NCBI RefSeq assembly: GCF_900166655.1
Contig: NZ_FVZB01000006.1
Span: 1,240,001 to 1,304,000, forward strand
DNA: 64,000 nucleotides
Direction of reading: 5' to 3'
DNA from: Halobacillus hunanensis
GTDB taxonomy: Bacteria > Bacillota > Bacilli > Bacillales > Halobacillaceae
Position numbers and translations under genes: made by a program. Below, one piece after another: positions 337 to 57,035 of the stretch (positions are counted from its first letter, which is position 1; every line of letters starts with the position of its first letter). The notes beneath the pieces were generated by a model, which saw only the letters and a program-made list of their open reading frames with translations, was not told the DNA's origin and did no database searches.

Positions 337-429
337 ACATTCAAGGATTTGCAATTCCACTGAATGGACATATAAGCAGAACTCCTTTTTTACTAAACAC
401 CTCCTATCCGCGTAGGTTATTGGTGAGAA

Positions 430-600
430 AAACAGGTAGGTCTCCTGGCTTATGGTCATGGCTTCCTGCTCCTTCCCATGTTTAACACACAGTGGATCTG
501 CAGGCTGCTCGCAATTACAGTGGCGGGACCGCGTTGGATTTTGAACCAACTTCCCTTTTAAGTGATGAGTAACATCACGCCTGTTTTCTTCGCCTATTCA
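430..600 (-). promoter_or_regulatory. Cobalamin (B12) riboswitch
   Basis: The minus strand carries the conserved cobalamin aptamer blocks in order: GGGAA...GGTTCAAAATCC, GCGGTCCCGCCACTGTAA, and AGCCAGGAGACCTACCTG (the B12 box). It precedes the BtuF-like gene and is followed by an intrinsic terminator. By analogy with known B12 riboswitches, ligand binding should favour termination and switch off transporter expression. Confidence 0.92.
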
Positions 601-34208: not shown

Positions 34209-34520
34209 AGAAGAGGCTGGGACATAATTGAATATCTAAAGTAAAAAGACGAACGAAGTGCTGTTTAAGCGGAGAAAATATACGGAGAATCCCGCGGGAG
34301 GAAAGACCTAGGTGAGACCTCGCAGTGCGTCAGCACAAGAAGGCAGTAAAAGGAAGTTCGACTAAGTTCGGCACGTCCTGTGCCAACGTCGAACGACCCC
34401 ACGTCGTTTGGGGCCGCGGAAAGCGAAGTATATTTTCGCAGCGGTTATATGCACCAATTACAGTTTTACTTACGTTCGGATTTTCAATTGATAAAAATAC
34501 TTTTGTCCCAACCTCTTTTT
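34209..34520. repeat. Dispersed repeat, long complete copy
   Basis: It begins AAGAGGCTGGGACATAA and ends TTTTGTCCCAACCTCTTTTT, the same termini as the 7.8 kb copy, but carries about 150 bp more GC-rich interior (CGCGGGAGGAAAGACCTAGG, GGAAGTTCGACTAAG, CCCCACGTCGTTTGGGG). No open reading frame looks real. The remainder of the gap to 34767 is AT-rich with no feature I can name. Confidence 0.88.
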
Positions 34521-47137: not shown

Positions 47138-47180
47138 TTCCACCTCAGGTCATCCAGAAACTGGATGACCTGAGGTGGAA
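47138..47180. repeat. Long perfect palindrome, left flank of the selenium island
   Basis: TTCCACCTCAGGTCATCCAG and its exact complement form a 20-bp stem around AAA. The 17-nt core CCACCTCAGGTCATCCA recurs in the palindrome at 56987-57035 and was not noticed elsewhere in the window. No T run follows, so it is not a classical terminator, though it lies between converging genes. Confidence 0.9.
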
Positions 47181-47217: not shown

Positions 47218-48621
47218 TTATTTCTCTATAGCAGCGAATCCTTCGATAAGCTCTGACATTTCTTCTTCTACAATGGTTCGAAAGTCAACACATACTCGTT
47301 CATTTTGAATTCGAGTAACGATGACAGGTGTATGTGCTCTTAATTTAGCGGCCAGTTCGTGAGCAGAAAGAGAATCATGCTGGAGAGCGGCGATAAAGGT
47401 AGGAAGATGGACACCAGGCATTGTTCCCCCTCCTACTTGGGACGTGCTTTCTCGAATATCTACTTGATAGGAGGATGTTCTCGCTTGAAGCTCATTAAAA
47501 AAAACTTCCGCTTGCTTTCTTATTTCCTCAGCCTTCCTTGTAACATCCCGCACGGTCGGGAGTTCATTGGTCGCCGAATTTCCTGATACATAGGCCTTTA
47601 ACGTTTGCTCTAATGCAGCAAACGTCATTTTATCTACCCGCAAAACCCTCGCTAATTGGTGTTTTTTCAACTTTTGAATGATGTCTTTCTTTCCTGCGAT
47701 AATTCCTGCCTGTGGTCCACCTAACAATTTATCGCCACTAAAAGAAATCACATCAACACCCGAGTTCATCACTTCCTTCACAACAGGTTCGTCACCTATT
47801 CCGTGCTCTTTAAAGTCAAAAAGCGAACCGCTTCCTAAATCCTCATAGAAAACGAAGTCATGCTCATCTTTTAAGGCCAATATATCTTCAGTAGCTACAC
47901 TTTCTGTAAAACCAACTGTCGTAAAATTACTCGTGTGAACTTTCATAATCATTGCCGTTTCTTCATGTATGGCTTCTTCATAATCGAACAAATGGGTTTT
48001 ATTCGTTGTGCCTACTTCTACCAAGCGAGCCCCGCTCTCTTCCATAATCGAGGAGACACGAAATGATCCGCCGATTTCCACGAGCTGGCCGCGGGAAACA
48101 ATGACTTCCCGTTCTTTAGCTAACGCACTTAATACGAGGAAGACGGCAGCAGCATTGTTATTTACCACCATGGCCGCCTCTGCCCCCGTTACCTCTTTGA
48201 GCAAATCTTCAATAATATCATGCCGAGATCCTCGCTTGCCTGCCTCTACCTGATATTCGAGATTAGAATAATTACGAGCTACGTCCGCTACATGCTGCAC
48301 CGCCTTTTCACTAAGTCGGGATCGACCTAAGTTCGTATGTAACACTGTACCCGTCCCATTGATAACCCGTGTCAAACGATCCTTCGTCCATTGATCTGCT
48401 CTTTTTTCGACATTACGAAAAATAACGTTCTCCATATCCTCATTAAAGAATTCTTCTGACAAATGGCCGTCTAATACCTTTTGTCTTATGTCATTAATTT
48501 CTTGTTGAACAAATGCTGTCATTTGTTCCTTCGTTATGGCAAAAGAAGATAGAAGGCTCTCAAACCGTTCATCCTTTTGCAATTCGTGAACAGGCGGCAA
48601 CTGCCTTAAATAGTGATTCAT
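47218..48621 (-). CDS. selA: L-seryl-tRNA(Sec) selenium transferase SelA
   Basis: The 467-residue PLP enzyme converts seryl-tRNA(Sec) to selenocysteinyl-tRNA(Sec) with selenophosphate. Family motifs are visible: NGTGTVLHTNLGRSRLS, TGAEAAMVVNNNAAAVFL, and the PLP lysine in FSGDKLLGGPQAGI. The ATG at 48621 starts MNHYLRQLPPVHEL, the usual SelA N terminus, with GGAGG 10 nt upstream. It is last in the selB-selW-selA block, but a terminator lies between selW and selA, so expression may depend on readthrough. Confidence 0.96.
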   Translation of the reverse strand: MNHYLRQLPPVHELQKDERFESLLSSFAITKEQMTAFVQQEINDIRQKVLDGHLSEEFFNEDMENVIFRNVEKRADQWTKDRLTRVINGTGTVLHTNLGRSRLSEKAVQHVADVARNYSNLEYQVEAGKRGSRHDIIEDLLKEVTGAEAAMVVNNNAAAVFLVLSALAKEREVIVSRGQLVEIGGSFRVSSIMEESGARLVEVGTTNKTHLFDYEEAIHEETAMIMKVHTSNFTTVGFTESVATEDILALKDEHDFVFYEDLGSGSLFDFKEHGIGDEPVVKEVMNSGVDVISFSGDKLLGGPQAGIIAGKKDIIQKLKKHQLARVLRVDKMTFAALEQTLKAYVSGNSATNELPTVRDVTRKAEEIRKQAEVFFNELQARTSSYQVDIRESTSQVGGGTMPGVHLPTFIAALQHDSLSAHELAAKLRAHTPVIVTRIQNERVCVDFRTIVEEEMSELIEGFAAIEK

Positions 48622-48710: not shown

Positions 48711-48950
48711 TTATGCTTGCTTCTCCATCATTTCTATCATTTGATTAACTTCAGGATATTCTTTCGTTTCAAGCTTTGAATGAATCTTTTCGCCATTAAC
48801 GGTAATTTCAAAAGCCCCACCCGAACTTGGGATCAGCTCCATTGAAGTAATGTCAGTGCGAAAATGAGTAAACAATTGTTCCGCAAAACTTGCGGCTTTT
48901 GGTGAGTAGTTTCACTGCATGCAAAATTCTATCGTAACCTTGTAACTCAT
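48711..48950 (-). CDS. selW: SelW/Rdx-family selenoprotein (in-frame UGA = selenocysteine)
   Basis: The 79-residue product needs readthrough of TGA at 48914-48912. It reads MSYKVTIEFCMQ-U13-NYSPKAASFAEQL and ends GGAFEITVNGEKIHSKLETKEYPEV..., the Rdx thioredoxin-like fold with the redox motif C10-x-x-U13 of SelW. The ATG overlaps the TGA of selB (ATGA), so translation is coupled. A CCGCAA-GTT-TTGCGG hairpin starts 16 nt after the UGA. Without recoding only 12 codons could be made, and codons after the UGA match the family. The role is probably thiol/selenol redox. Confidence 0.92.
48881..48895 (-). promoter_or_regulatory. SECIS element of selW
   Basis: CCGCAA-GTT-TTGCGG makes a perfect 6-bp stem with a 3-nt loop beginning with G, 22 nt between UGA and loop. 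This satisfies the bacterial SECIS pattern of a short stem-loop downstream of UGA with G in the first two loop positions. Confidence 0.85.
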
Positions 48951-50851
48951 GATTTTCCCTCCATCCATTTTCGTTCATTATCTTGACGGGTTGTTATTTT
49001 CAACTGATCAAGCAGTTCTAAAAATGGGATTAAATATTTCCTCGATACATCGAGAGTATCTTTTGCTTCTTTTAAATCGAAGGTCTCTCCCGTTTGCCGC
49101 TTCAATTTTGATAAAGCCGCGTCGAGTGCTGATCGATGGATAAGCCTATCATCCAGAATTCGAAAAGCTTGTTTGGTTTGCACAAGATACACAGCAAACT
49201 CGTTTGCATCATGCTTCGAGAACGGGGTATTAGTTAGATAATCCTCCCACTTCTTTACGGTCAGCCCATCTTTTTTAAGGCTGTGGATCACCTCAAGCAT
49301 TCTTTGTTTCCATTGTTTAGGCAAATGCGGATGAAACTCTGCCGAGGAAACAAATTGGTCTTTCTTTTCCAGGTTACCCTTTTTAACTAATTGATCTAAA
49401 CTATACTCAACCAACACCTTTGAGTACATTCCGCTTAACATTTGGAGAATCTCTGCCTTACTAATGCCTAATCTCATAGGGTAATCCTGATGATAGTTTT
49501 CAAGCTGGGATATGATTTCGTCTTTAACCTTATTAAATGTTTTCGTTACCCCATATGTTTGCCTATTAACCTCGAATAAATACCCCTCTTCCAACCCTTC
49601 AGCAACCGTACGCTTTACAACATGTTCATCAAGCGACGTATACTGGATCAGCTGTTTCACATCTAGTAAAGTATGCGTGCTTAGTACATCCTCAATTAAA
49701 TCTTCAGGGGTGCTTTGCTTCTTGTTTTGCAGCCTATCAATGGTTGCTTTGCCAAAACGATATTTGCCGCCCTCAGGCTGAATGACCCAGCCTCCTCCGA
49801 TCGTTTCTACAGGAGTCGGCCGCCTCAAGATGAAACGATCGCCGCGTCGAACAACCACTTCTTCATCCAGTTGAATTTGGCAGAGAACTTCTCCATCCGT
49901 CTGTTTCACTTCATTTCTGTCAAAGAATACAATTCTCCCCATAACCTCTGACGTTCCTACATGAATTTTGACCGGCATGCGTTGTTTAACCGGAACACGC
50001 AATGCCTCTACAAACTGAAGAGCCACATCAATCGTTTTTGTTACGAGGAAGTGATCTGAGGCGACTAGCACATCTCCGCGATGAACGTCCTCTTTATCCA
50101 CTCCACTAAGGTTGATTGCCGTTCTCTGTCCAGCTCGCGCCACGTTCTGGTCTTCATGATGAACCTGTATTTGTCGAGCTCTTACCTTGTGATCCTTAGG
50201 AAGCAGCCTTAATTGACTTCCCTGTTGAACAATCCCTTCATAGATCGTCCCCCTGACAATTGTACCTTGTCCCTGTACGGTAAAGACTTGATCAACGGGC
50301 AGCCGAAATGAGCCGTAAGCATCCCGACTCTCGACCAATTTTAATTCACTGATAATCTTTTGATTCAGGTTATCTATCCCTTTACCTGAAATACCATCCA
50401 CATAAACGAAAGGAGCTTTATGAAAAATTGTCCCTGTAAGCCCATCTTTAATGTCTTCAGTGACGAACTCCAACATCTCATCGTCCACACGATCCACTTT
50501 TGATATAGCCACAATACAATGCTCAATACCAAGGAACTCCAGTATTTCTAAATGCTCTTTTGTCTGCGGCATAACTCCTTCATCTGCTGCAATCACGAGT
50601 ACGACTAGATCAATACCAGCAACACCCGCAATCATTTGCCGGATAAACCGCTCGTGTCCCGGAACATCAACGATTGAAATGTTTATCCCCTCTTCAATTC
50701 GTAAGGGAGCATAGCCAAGTTCGATCGAAATACTCCGTTCCTTTTCTTCCTTTAAACGGTCTGTGTCTATGTGACTTAATGCTTTGGTCAATGTCGTTTT
50801 TCCATGGTCAATATGCCCTGCCATGCCAATCGTAAAATACGTGTCACTCAT
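48947..50851 (-). CDS. selB: Selenocysteine-specific elongation factor SelB
   Basis: The 634-residue GTPase delivers Sec-tRNA(Sec) to ribosomes at UGA codons with a SECIS hairpin. G motifs are complete: GHIDHGKTTL, the Sec-specific switch region EEKERSISIELGYAPL, DVPGHERFIRQMIAG and SKVD. Domains II and III follow, then C-terminal winged helices (from about 390) that bind the SECIS. The ATG at 50851 is preferred to a GTG three codons earlier. selB is divergent from tRNA-Sec across about 150 bp. Confidence 0.96.
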   Translation of the reverse strand: MSDTYFTIGMAGHIDHGKTTLTKALSHIDTDRLKEEKERSISIELGYAPLRIEEGINISIVDVPGHERFIRQMIAGVAGIDLVVLVIAADEGVMPQTKEHLEILEFLGIEHCIVAISKVDRVDDEMLEFVTEDIKDGLTGTIFHKAPFVYVDGISGKGIDNLNQKIISELKLVESRDAYGSFRLPVDQVFTVQGQGTIVRGTIYEGIVQQGSQLRLLPKDHKVRARQIQVHHEDQNVARAGQRTAINLSGVDKEDVHRGDVLVASDHFLVTKTIDVALQFVEALRVPVKQRMPVKIHVGTSEVMGRIVFFDRNEVKQTDGEVLCQIQLDEEVVVRRGDRFILRRPTPVETIGGGWVIQPEGGKYRFGKATIDRLQNKKQSTPEDLIEDVLSTHTLLDVKQLIQYTSLDEHVVKRTVAEGLEEGYLFEVNRQTYGVTKTFNKVKDEIISQLENYHQDYPMRLGISKAEILQMLSGMYSKVLVEYSLDQLVKKGNLEKKDQFVSSAEFHPHLPKQWKQRMLEVIHSLKKDGLTVKKWEDYLTNTPFSKHDANEFAVYLVQTKQAFRILDDRLIHRSALDAALSKLKRQTGETFDLKEAKDTLDVSRKYLIPFLELLDQLKITTRQDNERKWMEGKS

Positions 50852-50962
50852 CTGCGTCACCCGTTTCTGTATTTACCTAATAATTCTATCTTAATAAGGA
50901 ACGCCCACGGGTTCAAGTTCTTCGATTTGTGTTACCAATTCCTGCACCCTCAGACCATTTTC

Positions 50963-51003: not shown

Positions 51004-51100
51004 GGGGTTGGATGGGTGACTGGTGTTCCCCTGGGTCTTCAAAACCCTGAGGGAGGCGCGTGCCGTCTCCGGTGGGTTCGATTCCCACACAGTCCCGCCA
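51004..51100 (+). tRNA. selC: Selenocysteine tRNA, anticodon UCA
   Basis: The 97-nt gene includes an encoded CCA end and discriminator G51097. The anticodon loop CTTCAAA carries TCA (51039-51041). The T arm GTGGG-TTCGATT-CCCAC (51072-51088) and a long variable arm (about 51050-51071) are clear, as expected of tRNA-Sec. The D arm has GGTG in its loop, with a bulged U in the stem. The acceptor stem pairs GGGGTTG with CAGTCCC including two G-U pairs; the eighth pair expected in bacterial tRNA-Sec is a G-A mismatch, which is unusual. Confidence 0.93.
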
Positions 51101-51140: not shown

Positions 51141-51200
51141 ATGATCTAAGGAAAGATAAAAGAGGACTGATTTTCTTCAAAAGACTAAAGGATGATACAC

Positions 51201-52190
51201 GTGAAAATCTTGCTGGCATCGCCAAATTTTCATCAACCCCGGGGCAACACCGTAACCGTTCAGAGAATTGCCAACAGTTTAGAGAAACTAGCCATTGATA
51301 CAGAGATCATTTCAACAACCGAGAAGGAATGGACAACCCTCCCGACAGCTGATCTTGTCCACGGCTTCCACGCTTATCACTTTTACAAGTTTATGCAAAA
51401 ATTAGACCATAAACCGGATCCGTATATGGTGACGATTACGGGCACTGATCTTAATCATGATTTGTTTGATGAAAAAAAGCGGAAAGATGTGTTTGCATCA
51501 TTAAGAGGGGCTGAGGCCATCCACGTATTTGATGACAAAGCAAAAAGCATTATCATTAATGAATTACCAGAAATAGAGGATAAAATTTTTACCATTGCCC
51601 AAGGAAACAGTGATTTTCCTGGCGAGACTCCTCCTGTCGAGAAAGCAGAAGACACATTTCTGTTTGTGCTGCCGGCAGGAATTAGAAAGGTTAAAAATGT
51701 GCCTGCGGCTATTCATATGATGCAGGAACTTCACGATAAGTTTCCGAGGGTGAGGCTTTGGCTAGTTGGGCCGATAATTGAGGAGGAAGAAGGGAAAACT
51801 GTACAAGAACTCGTTTGCCAATATGATTGGGTTCAATACTTGGGCCAAGTACCTCACTCAACTATGGGCTCCATTTATCAACGTGCAGATGTCGTGATCA
51901 ACACTTCCCACTCAGAAGGCCAGCCATCTTCCCTTATAGAAGCAATGGGATATAGTCTTCCTGTTTTAGTCTCGAACAATCCGGGGAACCAAAGTATTGT
52001 CTCACATCTAGAAACGGGTTTTGTTTATAACGACCCAAACGAATTCCTTGATTATAGTGAGCAAATCATTAATAATAACGAGATAAAACAAAAGATTGGG
52101 CAGCAAGCTAAACAGTATATTATCAAACATCATTCAAACACAAATGAAGCTAACGCTTTCGTGAAAATTTATAAAAATATTATCGAATAG
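51201..52190 (+). CDS. GT4 glycosyltransferase, SenB-like (possible selenosugar synthase)
   Basis: The 329-residue GT-B enzyme has the N-terminal pattern MKILLASPNF...GNTVTVQRIANSL, a TITGTDLNHDLF motif near residue 80, and the C-terminal donor site SEGQPSSLIEAMGYSLPVLVSNNPGN. This layout recalls SenB, which makes a seleno-sugar from UDP-sugar and selenophosphate in selenoneine synthesis. It lies between tRNA-Sec and selD, 48 bp before selD and in the same direction. No SenA-like enzyme is present. The GTG at 51201 is chosen because AAAGGA precedes it; an ATG three codons earlier is possible. Glycosyltransferase class is secure, SenB function is inferred. Confidence 0.75.
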   Translation: MKILLASPNFHQPRGNTVTVQRIANSLEKLAIDTEIISTTEKEWTTLPTADLVHGFHAYHFYKFMQKLDHKPDPYMVTITGTDLNHDLFDEKKRKDVFASLRGAEAIHVFDDKAKSIIINELPEIEDKIFTIAQGNSDFPGETPPVEKAEDTFLFVLPAGIRKVKNVPAAIHMMQELHDKFPRVRLWLVGPIIEEEEGKTVQELVCQYDWVQYLGQVPHSTMGSIYQRADVVINTSHSEGQPSSLIEAMGYSLPVLVSNNPGNQSIVSHLETGFVYNDPNEFLDYSEQIINNNEIKQKIGQQAKQYIIKHHSNTNEANAFVKIYKNIIE

Positions 52191-52238: not shown

Positions 52239-53288
52239 ATGGCTGGACAAGAAAACGTAAAACTAACTTCTTTATCTAGTAAAGGTGGCTGAGGCTGCAA
52301 AATTGGTCCTGAAGACCTGACGCAAGTTTTGCGTCACTTACCAAAATCTGTAGCTGATCCTAATTTACTTGTTGGACTTGAAACATCCGATGACGCAGGC
52401 GTATATAAAATAAATGAGGAAACGGCCTTAGTTCAAACTTTAGACTATTTCACTCCTATAGTAGATGACCCATATATGTTTGGCCAAATTGGAGCAGCTA
52501 ATGCACTTAGTGATGTTTACGCAATGGGCGGAAAGCCGATCACTGTCATGAACATCGTTGGATTCCCTATCAACACGTTAGATAAAAGTATTTTAGCTGA
52601 TATTCTGGCTGGAGCTGCTGACAAAGTAAGAGAATCTGGAGCCGTCTTAGTCGGTGGACACTCTATAGACGATCAGGAACCAAAGTTTGGTCTATCCGTT
52701 ACCGGAACCGTTCATCCAGAACGTGTACGGGCCAATGCTGGGGCTCAGCCAGGCGACCGTCTTATTTTAACCAAGCCGATCGGTGTAGGGATTTTAACTA
52801 CTGCCATAAAGAAAGATTTACTGAACAATGATGAATTGAATGAAGTGATGAACGTCATGGCAGAGTTAAACAAAAAAGCTGCCGAGAGCATGGAAGGCTA
52901 TACTGTACATGCTTGTACAGATGTTACTGGTTTTGGACTGCTCGGCCACACGCTTGAAATCGCCAAAGGAAGCCGGGTTGGAGTCACTGTCTCAAGTAAG
53001 GATGTTCCTGTTTTGTCCAAGACAAGAGAGCTTGCTGAACAAAATATCATCCCCGGCGGTACTCGGAAGAATCACCAATGGCTTGCTGAGAGTATTGATT
53101 ATGAGCCATCTGTCAGTGAAATCGATCAGCTGATTCTTTGTGATGCTGTAACATCCGGCGGTCTCCTTATTTCCGTACCTGAAGGCGAAGCTGAATCATT
53201 ACAACAAGAATTAAAAGATAACCACGTCCAGTCCGCCATTATTGGGGAAGTGACTAGTGAAAAAAAAGGAAGAATCCATGTTATTTAA
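52239..53288 (+). CDS. selD: Selenide, water dikinase SelD, itself a selenoprotein
   Basis: The 349-residue enzyme makes selenophosphate from selenide and ATP. The ATG after GGAAAGGAG is followed by TGA at 52290-52292 in frame, giving SSKGG-U18-GCKIGPEDL, the exact context of the catalytic Cys/Sec and Lys of SelD. The AIRS fold follows with [40 protein letters not shown]-like sequence and GGHSIDDQEPKFGLSV. A start after the UGA would remove the active site. A hairpin begins 25 nt after the UGA. It is followed by a terminator. Confidence 0.95.
52318..52336 (+). promoter_or_regulatory. SECIS element of selD
   Basis: TGACGCAA-GTT-TTGCGTCA is a perfect 8-bp stem with a GTT loop, 33 nt after the UGA. 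The 13-mer CGCAAGTTTTGCG is identical to the core of the selW hairpin. A weaker GGTC/GACC stem lies between UGA and this hairpin. Confidence 0.78.
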
Positions 53289-53318: not shown

Positions 53319-53368
53319 AAATGCAGAATTTCAATCAGAACTTATTTCTACTTAGTGAGGTGAACAGA

Positions 53369-54277
53369 ATGAAAAAATGGATTATGGCAGTTCTCTTAAT
53401 TAGTCTAGTGCTGCTCATAACCGCATGTGGTGAGAACAGCGACCAAACCAGCCAAGATCAATCTGAAGAAAATCAGTCTGGAAAGACCTTTACGATCGGT
53501 GTTATTCCTGCCCAGACAGAAGGGGCAATGGATAATGCTATGAATAAGCTTCAATCCCTGTTAAATGAGAAATTAAATCGTGAGGTAAATATTGAAGTTT
53601 ACCCCGACTATAACGGTGTCGTGGAAGCCATGAACTACGATAAAATTGATATGGCTTATCTAGGGCCGTTAACGTATGTCATTGCCCATGAAAAGAGCGG
53701 TGCAAAGGCCATTATTACTCAACTAATTGACGGAGAGCCTTTTTACCATTCCTATATCATCACACATAGCGACCATCCATGGAATTCCTTAGATGAAATG
53801 CTGCAAAATCCTGAAGAAGTCGCCTTTGCCTTTGGTGACCCAAATTCAACATCTGGCTCCTTAATCCCATCTATTGAATTAGAGCAGCGAGGGGTTTATC
53901 AAAGCATGGAAAAAAATCAATTTAAATCTGTTCGTTACACAGGTTCGCATGATGCATCTGCTCTAGCTGTCCAAAACAAGCAAGTAGACGCTGCTGCTAT
54001 AGATAGCGCCATTTTCCATCAGTTGGTTGAATCAGGGAAAATAAACGATAAACAGCTCCGAGTCATTTGGGAATCCGACAAGATCTTCCAATACCCTTGG
54101 GCTGTCCATAAGAATACAGATCAAGAAACGATCAAGAAGCTCCAAGAAGCTTTTCTCTCCATAGAGGATCAAGAGATTCTTGACGCATTCGGTGCCACTG
54201 GTTTTACTAAAGCAAGCAATGACGATTATAAGAACATCAGGCAAGCTGCCCTTAAACAAGGAATTATTGAAGAGTAG
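53369..54277 (+). CDS. PhnD-like oxyanion-binding lipoprotein
   Basis: The 302-residue phosphate/phosphonate/phosphite-type binding protein has a lipoprotein signal (VLLITACGENS) and the family patterns FTIGVIPAQTEGAMDNA, VEAMNYDKIDMAYLGPLTYV and FAFGDPNSTSGSLIPS. It starts the phnD-E-C-like operon just after selD. The family binds XO3-type anions; the location inside a selenium island suggests selenite or another selenium oxyanion, which is inference. The ATG at 53369 follows GTGAGGTG. Confidence 0.85.
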   Translation: MKKWIMAVLLISLVLLITACGENSDQTSQDQSEENQSGKTFTIGVIPAQTEGAMDNAMNKLQSLLNEKLNREVNIEVYPDYNGVVEAMNYDKIDMAYLGPLTYVIAHEKSGAKAIITQLIDGEPFYHSYIITHSDHPWNSLDEMLQNPEEVAFAFGDPNSTSGSLIPSIELEQRGVYQSMEKNQFKSVRYTGSHDASALAVQNKQVDAAAIDSAIFHQLVESGKINDKQLRVIWESDKIFQYPWAVHKNTDQETIKKLQEAFLSIEDQEILDAFGATGFTKASNDDYKNIRQAALKQGIIEE

Positions 54278-54288
54278 AGTTGATCATC

Positions 54289-55044
54289 ATGTGGTTTAAA
54301 AAACGCAACATCCTAACCATTATACTTCTTAGTATATTTATTTATTTCAGTATGAAGCTGACAGAATTTGATATTACCAAATTTAGAGACTTCCGTAATA
54401 TGATTGATTTCATGGCACAATGGTTTCCGATTAACTTTTCGAACCTATCTGGAATAGTAATGGATACATTGCAAACCTTAGCTATGGCATTTCTAGGTAG
54501 TTTATTGGGTTTATTAATTGCCTTGCCTATAAGCTTCATAGCGGCCCGTAACACATCACCCTCTCCTATTATTTATCACTTTTGGCGGGTATTCTTAAGT
54601 TTCATTCGGTCTATACCTGAAATTGTGTTTGGACTGATTTTATTGACAGCGCTTGGACTGGGACCTTTCCCCGCTGTTATTGCTATCATGCTTCATAACA
54701 TCGGTGTATTAGGGAAGCTCATTTCAGAATTAATCGAAGCCGCTGACCCTGGTCCCCAGGAAGCTATGAAGGCCGTGGGAGCAAAGGGGTGGATTGTTTC
54801 ACTCTTCAGCATCTTGCCGCAAATTTGGCCTAATGTGTTATCCCATTATTTCTACCGATTTGAAGTCGCCATCCGCACGTCACTCATTTTAGGGTTTATT
54901 GGCGGTGGAGGGATTGGTCAACGTTTATTTAACGATTTTAAGACCTTTCAATACCAATCCGTTTCCCTTGATGTGCTGATCATCATGATTATGGTGATCA
55001 TCGTTGATTTCTTTGGAGGGTACATTAGAAACAAGGTTATTTAA
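54289..55044 (+). CDS. PhnE-like ABC permease
   Basis: The 251-residue permease has six membrane segments and the EAA loop EAADPGPQEAMKAVGAKGWIVSL. It forms the channel with the PhnD-like and PhnC-like proteins. An ATG at 54289 or a TTG three codons earlier could start it; no strong ribosome binding site separates them. Confidence 0.87.
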   Translation: MWFKKRNILTIILLSIFIYFSMKLTEFDITKFRDFRNMIDFMAQWFPINFSNLSGIVMDTLQTLAMAFLGSLLGLLIALPISFIAARNTSPSPIIYHFWRVFLSFIRSIPEIVFGLILLTALGLGPFPAVIAIMLHNIGVLGKLISELIEAADPGPQEAMKAVGAKGWIVSLFSILPQIWPNVLSHYFYRFEVAIRTSLILGFIGGGGIGQRLFNDFKTFQYQSVSLDVLIIMIMVIIVDFFGGYIRNKVI

Positions 55045-55106
55045 AGAATTACCTGCTCATTATGATAGTTAGATGGGTACGGTCTATTTAGAGAGGAGGC
55101 CGGCTA

Positions 55107-55862
55107 ATGATTGAGATGAATAACGTTTCCGTCCGCTATCCAGGAGCTAAGCATGATGCACTTTCAGATATTGATCTAACCTTTGAAAAAGGAGACTTTA
55201 TCTGCATCCTTGGTAAGAGCGGCGCTGGGAAGTCTACGTTCATTCGTTGCATAAATGGATTACAGGAGCTTACACAGGGTGAAGTTAAGTTAGATGGAAA
55301 GCAGATATCCAATATGAGTGAAGAACAATTGCGTCAGGTAAGGTTGGAAATGGGGATGGTTTTTCAACATTTTAACCTGATCCCGCGCATGAGCGTCATC
55401 CAAAATGTCTTAACCGGAATCTTTGGATACCGCAGTAATGTTAAGAACCTGCTCGGGCTATTTTCAGCTGACGAACTAGAACAAGCCAAACGTGTCATTT
55501 CCGAAGTCGGACTCTCTGACATGATGGACCGAAGGGTAGAACGATTAAGCGGCGGCCAGAAACAAAGGGTAGGTATTGCTCGTGCGATCGTGCAGCGGCC
55601 AAGAATTTTACTAGGGGATGAGCCTGTAGCCAGTCTGGATCCTGGCACATCTAATCACATTTTCACATTGCTGAAAGAGATGCATCAACGGCTTGGTTTA
55701 CTCACCATCATAAACGTACATGATATTGGCCTGGCCAAGCGGTATGCGACAAGGCTTTTAGCACTTAAAGATGGGAAGCTTATTTTCGATGGCAATCCTG
55801 AGGAATTTACTGAGAGTTACTATGAGGAAACATACGAATCACCAGATAACCTTTTAACATGA
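55107..55862 (+). CDS. PhnC-like ABC ATPase
   Basis: The 251-residue ATPase has Walker A GKSGAGKSTFIRCINGL, Q-loop MVFQHFNLIPRMSV, signature LSGGQKQRVGIARAI and Walker B ILLGDEPVASLDP. AGAGAGGAGG precedes the ATG. It is followed 30 bp later by the selenocysteine-containing deacetylase, likely in the same transcript. Confidence 0.9.
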   Translation: MIEMNNVSVRYPGAKHDALSDIDLTFEKGDFICILGKSGAGKSTFIRCINGLQELTQGEVKLDGKQISNMSEEQLRQVRLEMGMVFQHFNLIPRMSVIQNVLTGIFGYRSNVKNLLGLFSADELEQAKRVISEVGLSDMMDRRVERLSGGQKQRVGIARAIVQRPRILLGDEPVASLDPGTSNHIFTLLKEMHQRLGLLTIINVHDIGLAKRYATRLLALKDGKLIFDGNPEEFTESYYEETYESPDNLLT

Positions 55863-55892
55863 TAACGATTTATACAAAAGGAGGACCAATCT

Positions 55893-56528
55893 ATGATTAA
55901 GAGTCCATGAGTAGTCGACTGTTCAAGGGTCGTGTACGACTCTCAAGATACAGATGTTATCACCTCTGTCCGAAGTAAAGCTGAAAAGTCAGTGGTGTTA
56001 ACCTTTGATGATGGTCCAAGCAAAGTATTGACACAAATACTTGATATCCTAGAGGCCGAAGACGTGCCAGCAACTTTCTTCTGGCAATCTCGTCTCCTTT
56101 ATTCAGAAAGGCCCTGGAAACGAGTGTTACAGGATGGACATATGATTGGATCCCATACTACAAAGCACCCTAATTTGGTTAAGCTCCCTTATGAAAAGCA
56201 ATTTGAAGAAATTCAAAACAGTATAACAAAGATTGAGCGGATTACAGGGAGTAAAATCGAGTACTTTCGCCCGCCGTTCGGCCAATATAACGCTGATACG
56301 ATTGAAGCCGCCAAGCAGTTGAACGTAACACCAGTGATGTGGAGAATTGCTTCAATTGATTGGGAACTAAAAGAAGACCCTCAGCAAATCATGACAAACG
56401 TCATCGATCATCTCGAAGACGGAGCAGTTCTTCTTATGCATGAGCTAAAACAAACGGTTGAAGTTTTACCGGAATTGATCAAGGCGATAAAAGAAAAGGG
56501 ATACACTTTTATCTTGCTAGATCATTGA
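55893..56528 (+). CDS. Polysaccharide deacetylase (NodB/CE4) family selenoprotein with N-terminal Sec
   Basis: Read through the TGA at 55908-55910, the frame encodes 211 residues: MIKSP-U6-VVD-C10-SRVVYDSQ.... AAAAGGAGGACC lies 7 nt before the ATG, far better than any site before the internal GTG at 55932 (AAGGG only 3 nt away). The CE4 motifs are complete: TFDDGPS (D39, D40), SHTTKH (H88, H92), RPPFG (R126), IDW (D156) and LLMHE (H183). There is no signal peptide, so it is probably cytoplasmic, unusual for CE4 enzymes. U6 and C10 could form a redox pair. A SECIS-like hairpin starts 15 nt after the UGA. The substrate is unknown; a selenosugar or an amino sugar is possible. Recoding is inferred from sequence. 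Confidence 0.8.
55926..55943 (+). promoter_or_regulatory. SECIS-like hairpin of the deacetylase gene
   Basis: AGGGTCG-TGTA-CGACTCT forms a 7-bp stem (one G-U) with a 4-nt loop whose second base is G; 22 nt separate UGA and loop, as in selW. Confidence 0.75.
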
Positions 56529-56588: not shown

Positions 56589-56897
56589 TTAAGAATGAGC
56601 GAACTCTTTTACCTGTTCTTCCGGGGCAAAACCGACTGAACGGTCCACTTCTTCTCCATCTTTAATCAATATTAAGGTTGGAATACTTTGTACTCCAAAC
56701 TGTCCAGCTAGATCTGATGCTTGATCTACATCCACGTAGTAAAAGTCAACATCATCGAGCTGTTCAGATACGCTTGAGACCACCGGCCCCAATTGACGAC
56801 AGCCTGGTCACCAATCCGCACCAAATTCAAGTACAATCGGCTGGCTCATGTTTTTAGTGAGTTCTGCATACTCTTCGGCATTAATTGCTTTAGCCAT
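56589..56897 (-). CDS. Thioredoxin-like selenoprotein with U-P-G-C active site
   Basis: The 102-residue thioredoxin fold protein requires readthrough of TGA at 56810-56808. It reads VLEFGADW-U30-PGC33-RQLGPVV, so the usual WCGPC becomes WUPGC. The cis-Pro motif QSIPTLILIKDG and the strand FYYVDVDQ are typical. AAGGAGG precedes the ATG. The codons after the UGA alone would lack the first beta-alpha unit and the active site. A hairpin starts 15 nt after the UGA. It probably reduces or recycles selenium or disulfide intermediates. Confidence 0.92.
56774..56792 (-). promoter_or_regulatory. SECIS element of the selenothioredoxin
   Basis: TTGGGGCC-GGT-GGTCTCAA is an 8-bp stem with two G-U pairs and a GGT loop, 23 nt after the UGA. 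Confidence 0.8.
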
Positions 56898-56986: not shown

Positions 56987-57035
56987 TACTGCCACCTCAG
57001 GTCATCCAAATATTGGATGACCTGAGGTGGCAGTA
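56987..57035. repeat. Long perfect palindrome, right flank of the selenium island
   Basis: The arms beginning TACTGCCACCTCAGGTCATC are exact complements over 23 bp around ATA. The core matches the left palindrome at 47138-47180. It lies between the divergent thioredoxin and AraC-type genes, so it cannot simply be a terminator of a gene end. Confidence 0.9.

Follow-up and report, generated by a model that had tools for sequence, protein, structure and literature searches.

An apparently new selenoprotein family: a CE4 deacetylase with an N-terminal selenocysteine and its possible place in a selenium pathway of Bacilli

We analysed a 64,000-nucleotide stretch of the Halobacillus hunanensis genome (the window in the following), in which a gene for a CE4/NodB-type deacetylase contains an in-frame UGA at its sixth codon. 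The encoded protein, here called Sec-CE4, is almost certainly a genuine selenoprotein in which the UGA is read as selenocysteine (Sec), and it apparently forms a new family in which Sec is obligate. Such a family had been proposed in a preliminary description of this DNA. The proposal is borne out by the UGA being conserved in 77 of 77 homologues, by covariation within the hairpin that follows it and by the presence of the elongation factor SelB in 75 of the 76 genomes concerned. As explanation for the whole we favour, with moderate confidence, that Sec-CE4 is an obligate selenoenzyme acting in a selenosugar pathway together with SelD and a GT4 glycosyltransferase. The features of the locus are collected in Table 1.

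Table 1. Features of the selenium locus, with positions counted from the first letter of the window.
Feature	Position	Strand	Evidence
SelA	47218..48621	-	TIGR00474 582 bits, cut-off 267.9
SelW-like selenoprotein (CMQU)	48711..48950	-	TIGR02174 69.9 bits, cut-off 34.2; translation
SelB elongation factor	48947..50860	-	TIGR00475 366.3 bits, over cut-off
tRNA-Sec (selC)	51004..51096	+	RF01852 62.5 bits, gathering score 47
SenB-like GT4 glycosyltransferase	51192..52190	+	NF038229, TIGR04348; Foldseek; conserved SenB residues
SelD selenophosphate synthetase, itself with Sec (GGUGCK)	52239..53288	+	TIGR00476 427.3 bits, cut-off 125; translation
PhnD-like binding protein	53321..54277	+	TIGR01098 223 bits, cut-off 112
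PhnE-type permease	54280..55044	+	TIGR01097 260.8 bits, cut-off 216.7
PhnC-type ABC ATPase	55107..55862	+	TIGR02315 295.6 bits, cut-off 266.1
Shine-Dalgarno sequence AAAAGGAGGACC	55876..55887	+	5 nt between its end and ATG 55893
Sec-CE4/NodB deacetylase, 211 aa, U6	55893..56528	+	Translation with TGA as Sec; PF01522; AF2 and Foldseek; TGA-sharing homologues
UGA, Sec codon 6	55908..55910	+	TGA in 91/91 parsed loci
bSECIS-like hairpin AGGGUCG-UGUA-CGACUCU, 7 bp	55926..55943	+	Covariation among homologues
Sec-thioredoxin (WUPGC), adjoins CE4	56589..56897	-	PF00085 E 6e-23; TIGR01068 91.5 bits (cut-off 96.8, just missed); translation

The Sec-CE4 frame is open from the TGA onward to the stop at 56526-56528. 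Its product matches Polysacc_deac_1 (PF01522) above cut-off with an E-value of 2.5e-35, confirming that the CE4 domain is complete as initially stated, and, judged by eye, it indeed has no obvious signal peptide. The predicted enzyme is probably a cytoplasmic, metal-dependent N-deacetylase. In the listed homologues a purine-rich stretch, also judged by eye, mostly lies 5' of the chosen start.

Homologues were sought in four overlapping samples, the counts of which are not additive: 11 genomes of the genus, 397 of the order, 358 of the class and 309 of the phylum. Within the genus four of the 11 genomes carry Sec-CE4, the window's own included, and the three other proteins are 79-83% identical and all contain the TGA. 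Within the order a threshold of E<=1e-42 yielded 77 matches in 76 genomes. All 77 have the TGA, 73 by reading of the locus and four by the search table alone (G154, G230, G239, G246). The table had flagged the TGA in 62 matches, 58 of which were also read. For the remaining 15 it gave "none" (14) or only "TAG" (one), because the local alignment ended before the TGA or another stop was flagged; when fetched and read, each of these loci showed TGA at the site. Two CE4 genes (G166, G277) contain a TAG within the frame and could be either damaged or wrongly sequenced. For a script-based reading 95 loci, some of them repeat fetches of one genome, were given to a parser. The last in-frame stop before the CE4 domain was TGA in every one of the 91 loci parsed, and the four unparsed loci were read as TGA.

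At class level 17 of the 358 genomes match profile A2 at E<=1e-55: 12 are flagged as TGA, G445 and G513 have the TGA upon reading, and G428, G486 and G522, generic long CE4s by the length of their open frames, were left out unread. At phylum level two of the 309 genomes matched, the window's own and G952, which also has the TGA. A search of genome contigs returned at least 80 loci. Among the matches listed, all except L206 (Planomicrobium sp. CPCC 101079, 63% identical) resemble generic CE4s, judging by the extent of the alignment and an identity of 29-43%. None of the Sec-CE4 members read has U6 replaced by Cys. For a selenoprotein, Cys homologues at the position of Sec are usual though not required. 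The preliminary description had expected them in relatives without Sec, an expectation that failed: the 218 SelB-negative genomes of the order contain a single match at E<=1e-42 (G239), which has the TGA form according to the table.

The stem of the hairpin behind the UGA begins 15 nt and its loop 22 nt after this codon. The loop in selW of the window likewise begins 22 nt after the selW UGA, such that the equal spacing described before is correct. Taken alone, the window hairpin folds no better than shuffled sequences (z -0.22; synonymous p 0.26), and support for it is thus comparative. In a set of 84 distinct sequences the stems average 6.33 bp compared to 3.94 +/- 0.18 bp (largest value 4.38) for synonymous recodings, with none of 300 recoding sets reaching the observed mean. 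The loop reads TGTA in 69 of the 84 sequences and starts 22 nt (43 sequences) or 19 nt (35) after the UGA. For six sequences (L072, L073, L079, L087, L123, L234) no hairpin with a 4-nt loop and at least 5 bp was found. Pairing was counted in 49 distinct hairpins, leaving out sequences whose best loop fell outside 16, 19 or 22 nt. In these hairpins 315 of 343 cells (91.8%) are paired compared to 26-46% when the arms are slid, where the unslid value is favoured because each hairpin was chosen as best stem; since the sequences are related and non-independent, this result is a count rather than a probability. All seven stem pairs show changes on both sides, and 78 of the 84 sequences have a G at loop position 1 or 2, in agreement with the SECIS-like hairpin proposed at the outset.

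SelA, SelB, SelD and tRNA-Sec are all encoded in the window. In the order SelB (TIGR00475) exceeds its cut-off in 179 of the 397 genomes, namely in 75 of the 76 with Sec-CE4 and in 104 of the 321 others (Fisher 1e-29, uncorrected for kinship). The exception, G239, is an assembly of 480 contigs. In the genus SelB is found in exactly the four of 11 genomes that carry Sec-CE4. Judging from these genomes, Sec-CE4 is restricted to organisms that decode Sec. In one CE4-containing genome (G029; L042, L044) selB is split into two pieces.

The gene order was compared in 60 fetched loci, counting GT4 from 100 bits. In 11 loci we found GT4-SelD-PhnD-PhnE-PhnC-CE4 in the same order and on the same strand, an operon closed by CE4 that occurs in many lineages. 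One further locus has GT4-SelD-CE4, one is without SelD and PhnD, and in four (L112, L115, L116, L117) GT4 alone lies directly 5' of CE4. The other 43 have no GT4 of at least 100 bits on the fetched stretch. Around these separate CE4 genes no general conserved neighbour was found, and the clusters present in at least six loci are mostly confined to one lineage or belong to generic transporter and enzyme families. Among eight additional loci the full operon order recurs in L206, L237 and L240, and no GT4 was seen in three. The two genes are neighbours in L286, from a genome outside the class, divergent in L238 and inverted, CE4 before GT4, in L274. When separate from CE4, GT4 often abuts selB; it does so in 11 of 18 loci examined, nine of these 11 having PhnDEC beside GT4.

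Co-occurrence extends beyond the operon. At E<=1e-45 GT4 is found in 81 of the 397 order genomes, including 72 of the 76 with CE4, and the remaining four have a GT4 at the looser E<=1e-30, beside selB in all four. Within the SelB genomes and at the first cut-offs, 71 contain both genes, 4 only CE4, 9 only GT4 and 95 neither. Of the nine genomes with GT4 only, G194 does have a CE4 with TGA, and the other eight gave no CE4 at E<=1e-50. In six of these eight the GT4 gene sits in the sel locus, which implies that GT4 can work alone. In G247 and G350 it lies outside the sel locus and may be unrelated. With this pattern of gene content, CE4 quite probably belongs to the same selenium pathway as GT4.

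The Phn-type ABC transporter at 53321-55862 stays associated with the sel genes from lineage to lineage, even where CE4 is absent. Its binding protein stays below the cut-offs for PhnD (TIGR03431, 220.8 bits; cut-off 261.1) and for the putative selenate-binding protein (TIGR04553, 170.3 bits; cut-off 250). The selenium locus is bordered by two palindromes, at 47140-47178 and 56992-57030, whose 16-nt arms CCACCTCAGGTCATCC are identical; shuffled sequences give an expectation of none. Near CE4 in G028 (L010) 13 bases of the arm recur. Of 284 loci, three contain these bases, namely L010 and, both from the window's own genome, L009 and L222. The window further holds two Bacillaceae-1 RNAs (1782-1848 and 34346-34412) and a cobalamin riboswitch (418-599, minus strand).

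The GT4 frame of the window has no in-frame stop and does not encode a selenoprotein. Its best NCBIfam match is the GPMC system family 4 glycosyltransferase (NF038229) with 283.8 bits, yet below the cut-off of 400; our literature search returned no paper that pairs "GPMC system" with "glycosyltransferase". The second match is SenB (TIGR04348) with 78.5 bits. As the cut-off of 300 is missed, we do not file the protein as SenB. All 18 aligned GT4 members match both models (the latter at E<=1e-10). Invariant among them are G18, N19, T22, R165, K168, E242 and E250, which align with G19, N20, T23, R155, K158, E231 and E239 of RsSenB (8k5u); the roles of the key SenB residues are described in the accessible text of PMC10891094 and PMC10702425. 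BshA shares R155/K158 and the E-x7-E pair in the same alignment, and the EGGAHV motif of SenB reads EGQ.. in GT4. The pattern GN..T..R is found in a single GT4, that of the selenium locus, among the six profile-matching ones of the genome, which has eight GT4 loci. The genome's own GT4s served as control here; the unrelated fetched loci held no other GT4. In a Foldseek search with the AF2 model (pLDDT 94.4) the eight best hits by E-value were SenB chains, followed by MshA, RsSenB and BshA. TM-scores were 0.73-0.82 for BshA and thus not worse than the 0.68-0.76 for SenB. Most likely GT4 works like SenB, as predicted from these likenesses.

In the CE4 domain itself T37-P42, H88, H92, R126, D156 and H183 are invariant in the 42 aligned CE4 proteins (A2). 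U6 is invariant alongside these catalytic residues and is the only invariant selenium or sulfur position. Membership in CE4 is described by a catalytic Asp, a His-His-Asp metal triad and motifs MT1-MT5 (accessible text of PMC10967932). By alignment the metal and catalytic centre of Sec-CE4 is intact, and deacetylase activity is predicted. The AF2 model has a pLDDT of 94.0 overall and of 66 for residues 1-10, which carry Sec. In the model Sec is thus located on a low-confidence N-terminal tail just before the CE4 barrel, and this tail is probably mobile.

The available text of PMC10891094 and PMC10702425 reports that SenB prefers UDP-GlcNAc. Together with the placement of a deacetylase beside a GlcNAc-using GT4, as for bacillithiol and mycothiol, this suggests that SelD, GT4 and CE4 would yield 1-seleno-glucosamine. 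In such a pathway SelD would make selenophosphate, from which the SenB-like GT4 would join selenium to C1 of GlcNAc, taken from UDP-GlcNAc, to give seleno-GlcNAc. Sec-CE4 would then take off the N-acetyl group, leaving 1-seleno-glucosamine or a compound derived from it. The PhnCDE-like transporter probably serves selenium import and would bring in a selenium compound. For Sec, the tail being of low confidence and probably mobile and a conserved partner Cys being absent, the most likely role would be to react with something outside the tail, be it the selenol (as substrate or product), an oxidised form of it, or the metal. As a side effect of the UGA, the enzyme would be made only at plentiful selenium. 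Substrate, product, transporter cargo and Sec chemistry are what we infer; for seleno-GlcNAc as the substrate of CE4 we consider the chances to be even. More tentatively, many Bacilli may make a low-molecular-weight selenium compound built on 1-seleno-glucosamine, a counterpart of bacillithiol and mycothiol, with the Sec of CE4 holding, reducing or sensing the selenium substrate.

Sec may instead have no chemical role, the UGA acting as a selenium gate that, for example, lets surplus selenophosphate be diverted when charged tRNA-Sec is plentiful. The UGA comes early, at codons 4-9 among the members listed, and is followed by an otherwise complete CE4, the tail is poorly defined in the model, and Cys replacements are missing, all of which would suit a gate. 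The surroundings of Sec are, however, kept at the protein level: in 78 distinct contexts the preceding residue is Pro in 74 (CCA 49, CCT 19, CCG 4, CCC 2), and the following residue is without exception hydrophobic (V, I, A, M or L). In addition, L056, L058 and L066 carry U-x-C at the N terminus, and L085, L087 and L235 contain two in-frame TGAs there, giving U-x-U-G; both arrangements resemble chemistry. We thus regard a pure gate as rather unlikely.

Slightly less probable still is that Sec-CE4 acts on an ordinary substrate, such as cytoplasmic fragments of peptidoglycan or chitin, and owes its place in the operon to the co-regulation of selenoproteins only. A Foldseek search with the CE4 model returned CE4 proteins, the nearest solved folds being CE4s that act on peptidoglycan, chitin and xylan. 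Among NCBIfam models PdaB and PdaA score best, both below cut-off, and the many loci in which GT4 is distant from CE4 also agree with an ordinary substrate. Against it stands the strong co-occurrence of CE4 and GT4 in SelB genomes, as well as the recurrence of their pairing in differing arrangements. Co-regulation of selenoproteins does not predict this pairing, because GT4 is not a selenoprotein.

The preliminary description had further taken U6 and C10 for a selenenylsulfide switch. The window protein and its three relatives in the genus have both residues, but position +4 is Cys in just eight of the 78 contexts and no invariant Cys exists elsewhere, which makes such a switch highly improbable. 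The least probable reading, in which the UGA genuinely ends a short leader, with CE4 translated from the internal GTG at 55932, can draw on this GTG being in frame and on most generic CE4s aligning only from about residue 28, but is contradicted by the frame and TGA shared by the members read, by a Shine-Dalgarno sequence and start before the UGA, by coding conservation on both sides of it, by the restriction to SelB genomes and by at least six members without the GTG (L079, L081, L083, L084, L122, L131), such that the test initially suggested, whether homologues share sequence upstream of the GTG, came out in favour of the upstream start.

A selenoprotein deacetylase was not found in the non-subscription literature searched; the one paper that a search brought up deals with two subjects that have no connection. 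Table 1 of a 2026 review on prokaryotic selenoprotein families (PMC13188914) contains no CE4 deacetylase, and the word "deacetylase" is absent from PMC12013277 (deep-Sep), PMC13188914, PMC9312934 and PMC5029168. According to the accessible text of the same review (PMC13188914), most characterised selenoproteins have a thioredoxin-like fold. Having no Cys version, Sec-CE4 would escape searches that require Sec/Cys pairs, and by inference its gene is mis-started or truncated in annotation.

Compared with known CE4 enzymes (PdaA, PdaB, PgdA, BA3943 and ArCE4A), Sec-CE4 has the fold, the metal triad and the motifs in common. It differs by its Sec-containing N terminus and, judged by eye, by having neither signal nor anchor. 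The motifs FFWQ and RPW are kept in the Sec-CE4 family but did not appear in either of the two solved CE4s whose alignments were inspected.

In the synthesis of bacillithiol (BshA/BshB) and of mycothiol (MshA/MshB) a GT4 acts first and the acetyl group of GlcNAc is removed thereafter. The deacetylases of both pathways are of the LmbE type. The proposed order of GT4 and deacetylation is alike, whereas the deacetylase is here a CE4 enzyme with Sec. A selenium pathway that replaces bacillithiol was considered as well and is ruled out by BshC, which is present in 42 of 42 genomes tested and suggests that bacillithiol is also made.

A further close parallel is the selenoneine pathway SenA/SenB/SenC of Variovorax, in which, in the accessible text of PMC10891094 and PMC10702425, a SelD-type enzyme is likewise found beside a GT-B Se-glycosyltransferase. 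The SenB-like genes reported in the available text of PMC10891094 come mainly from beta-proteobacteria. Sec-CE4, the SenB-like GT4, SelD and the transporter together suggest that Bacilli have a pathway for small selenium molecules. Compared with SenA/SenB/SenC, this pathway would include a CE4 selenoprotein, no SenA equivalent having been noticed, and its GT4, although scoring just 78.5 bits against the SenB model, retains the equivalents of N20, T23, R155, K158 and E231.
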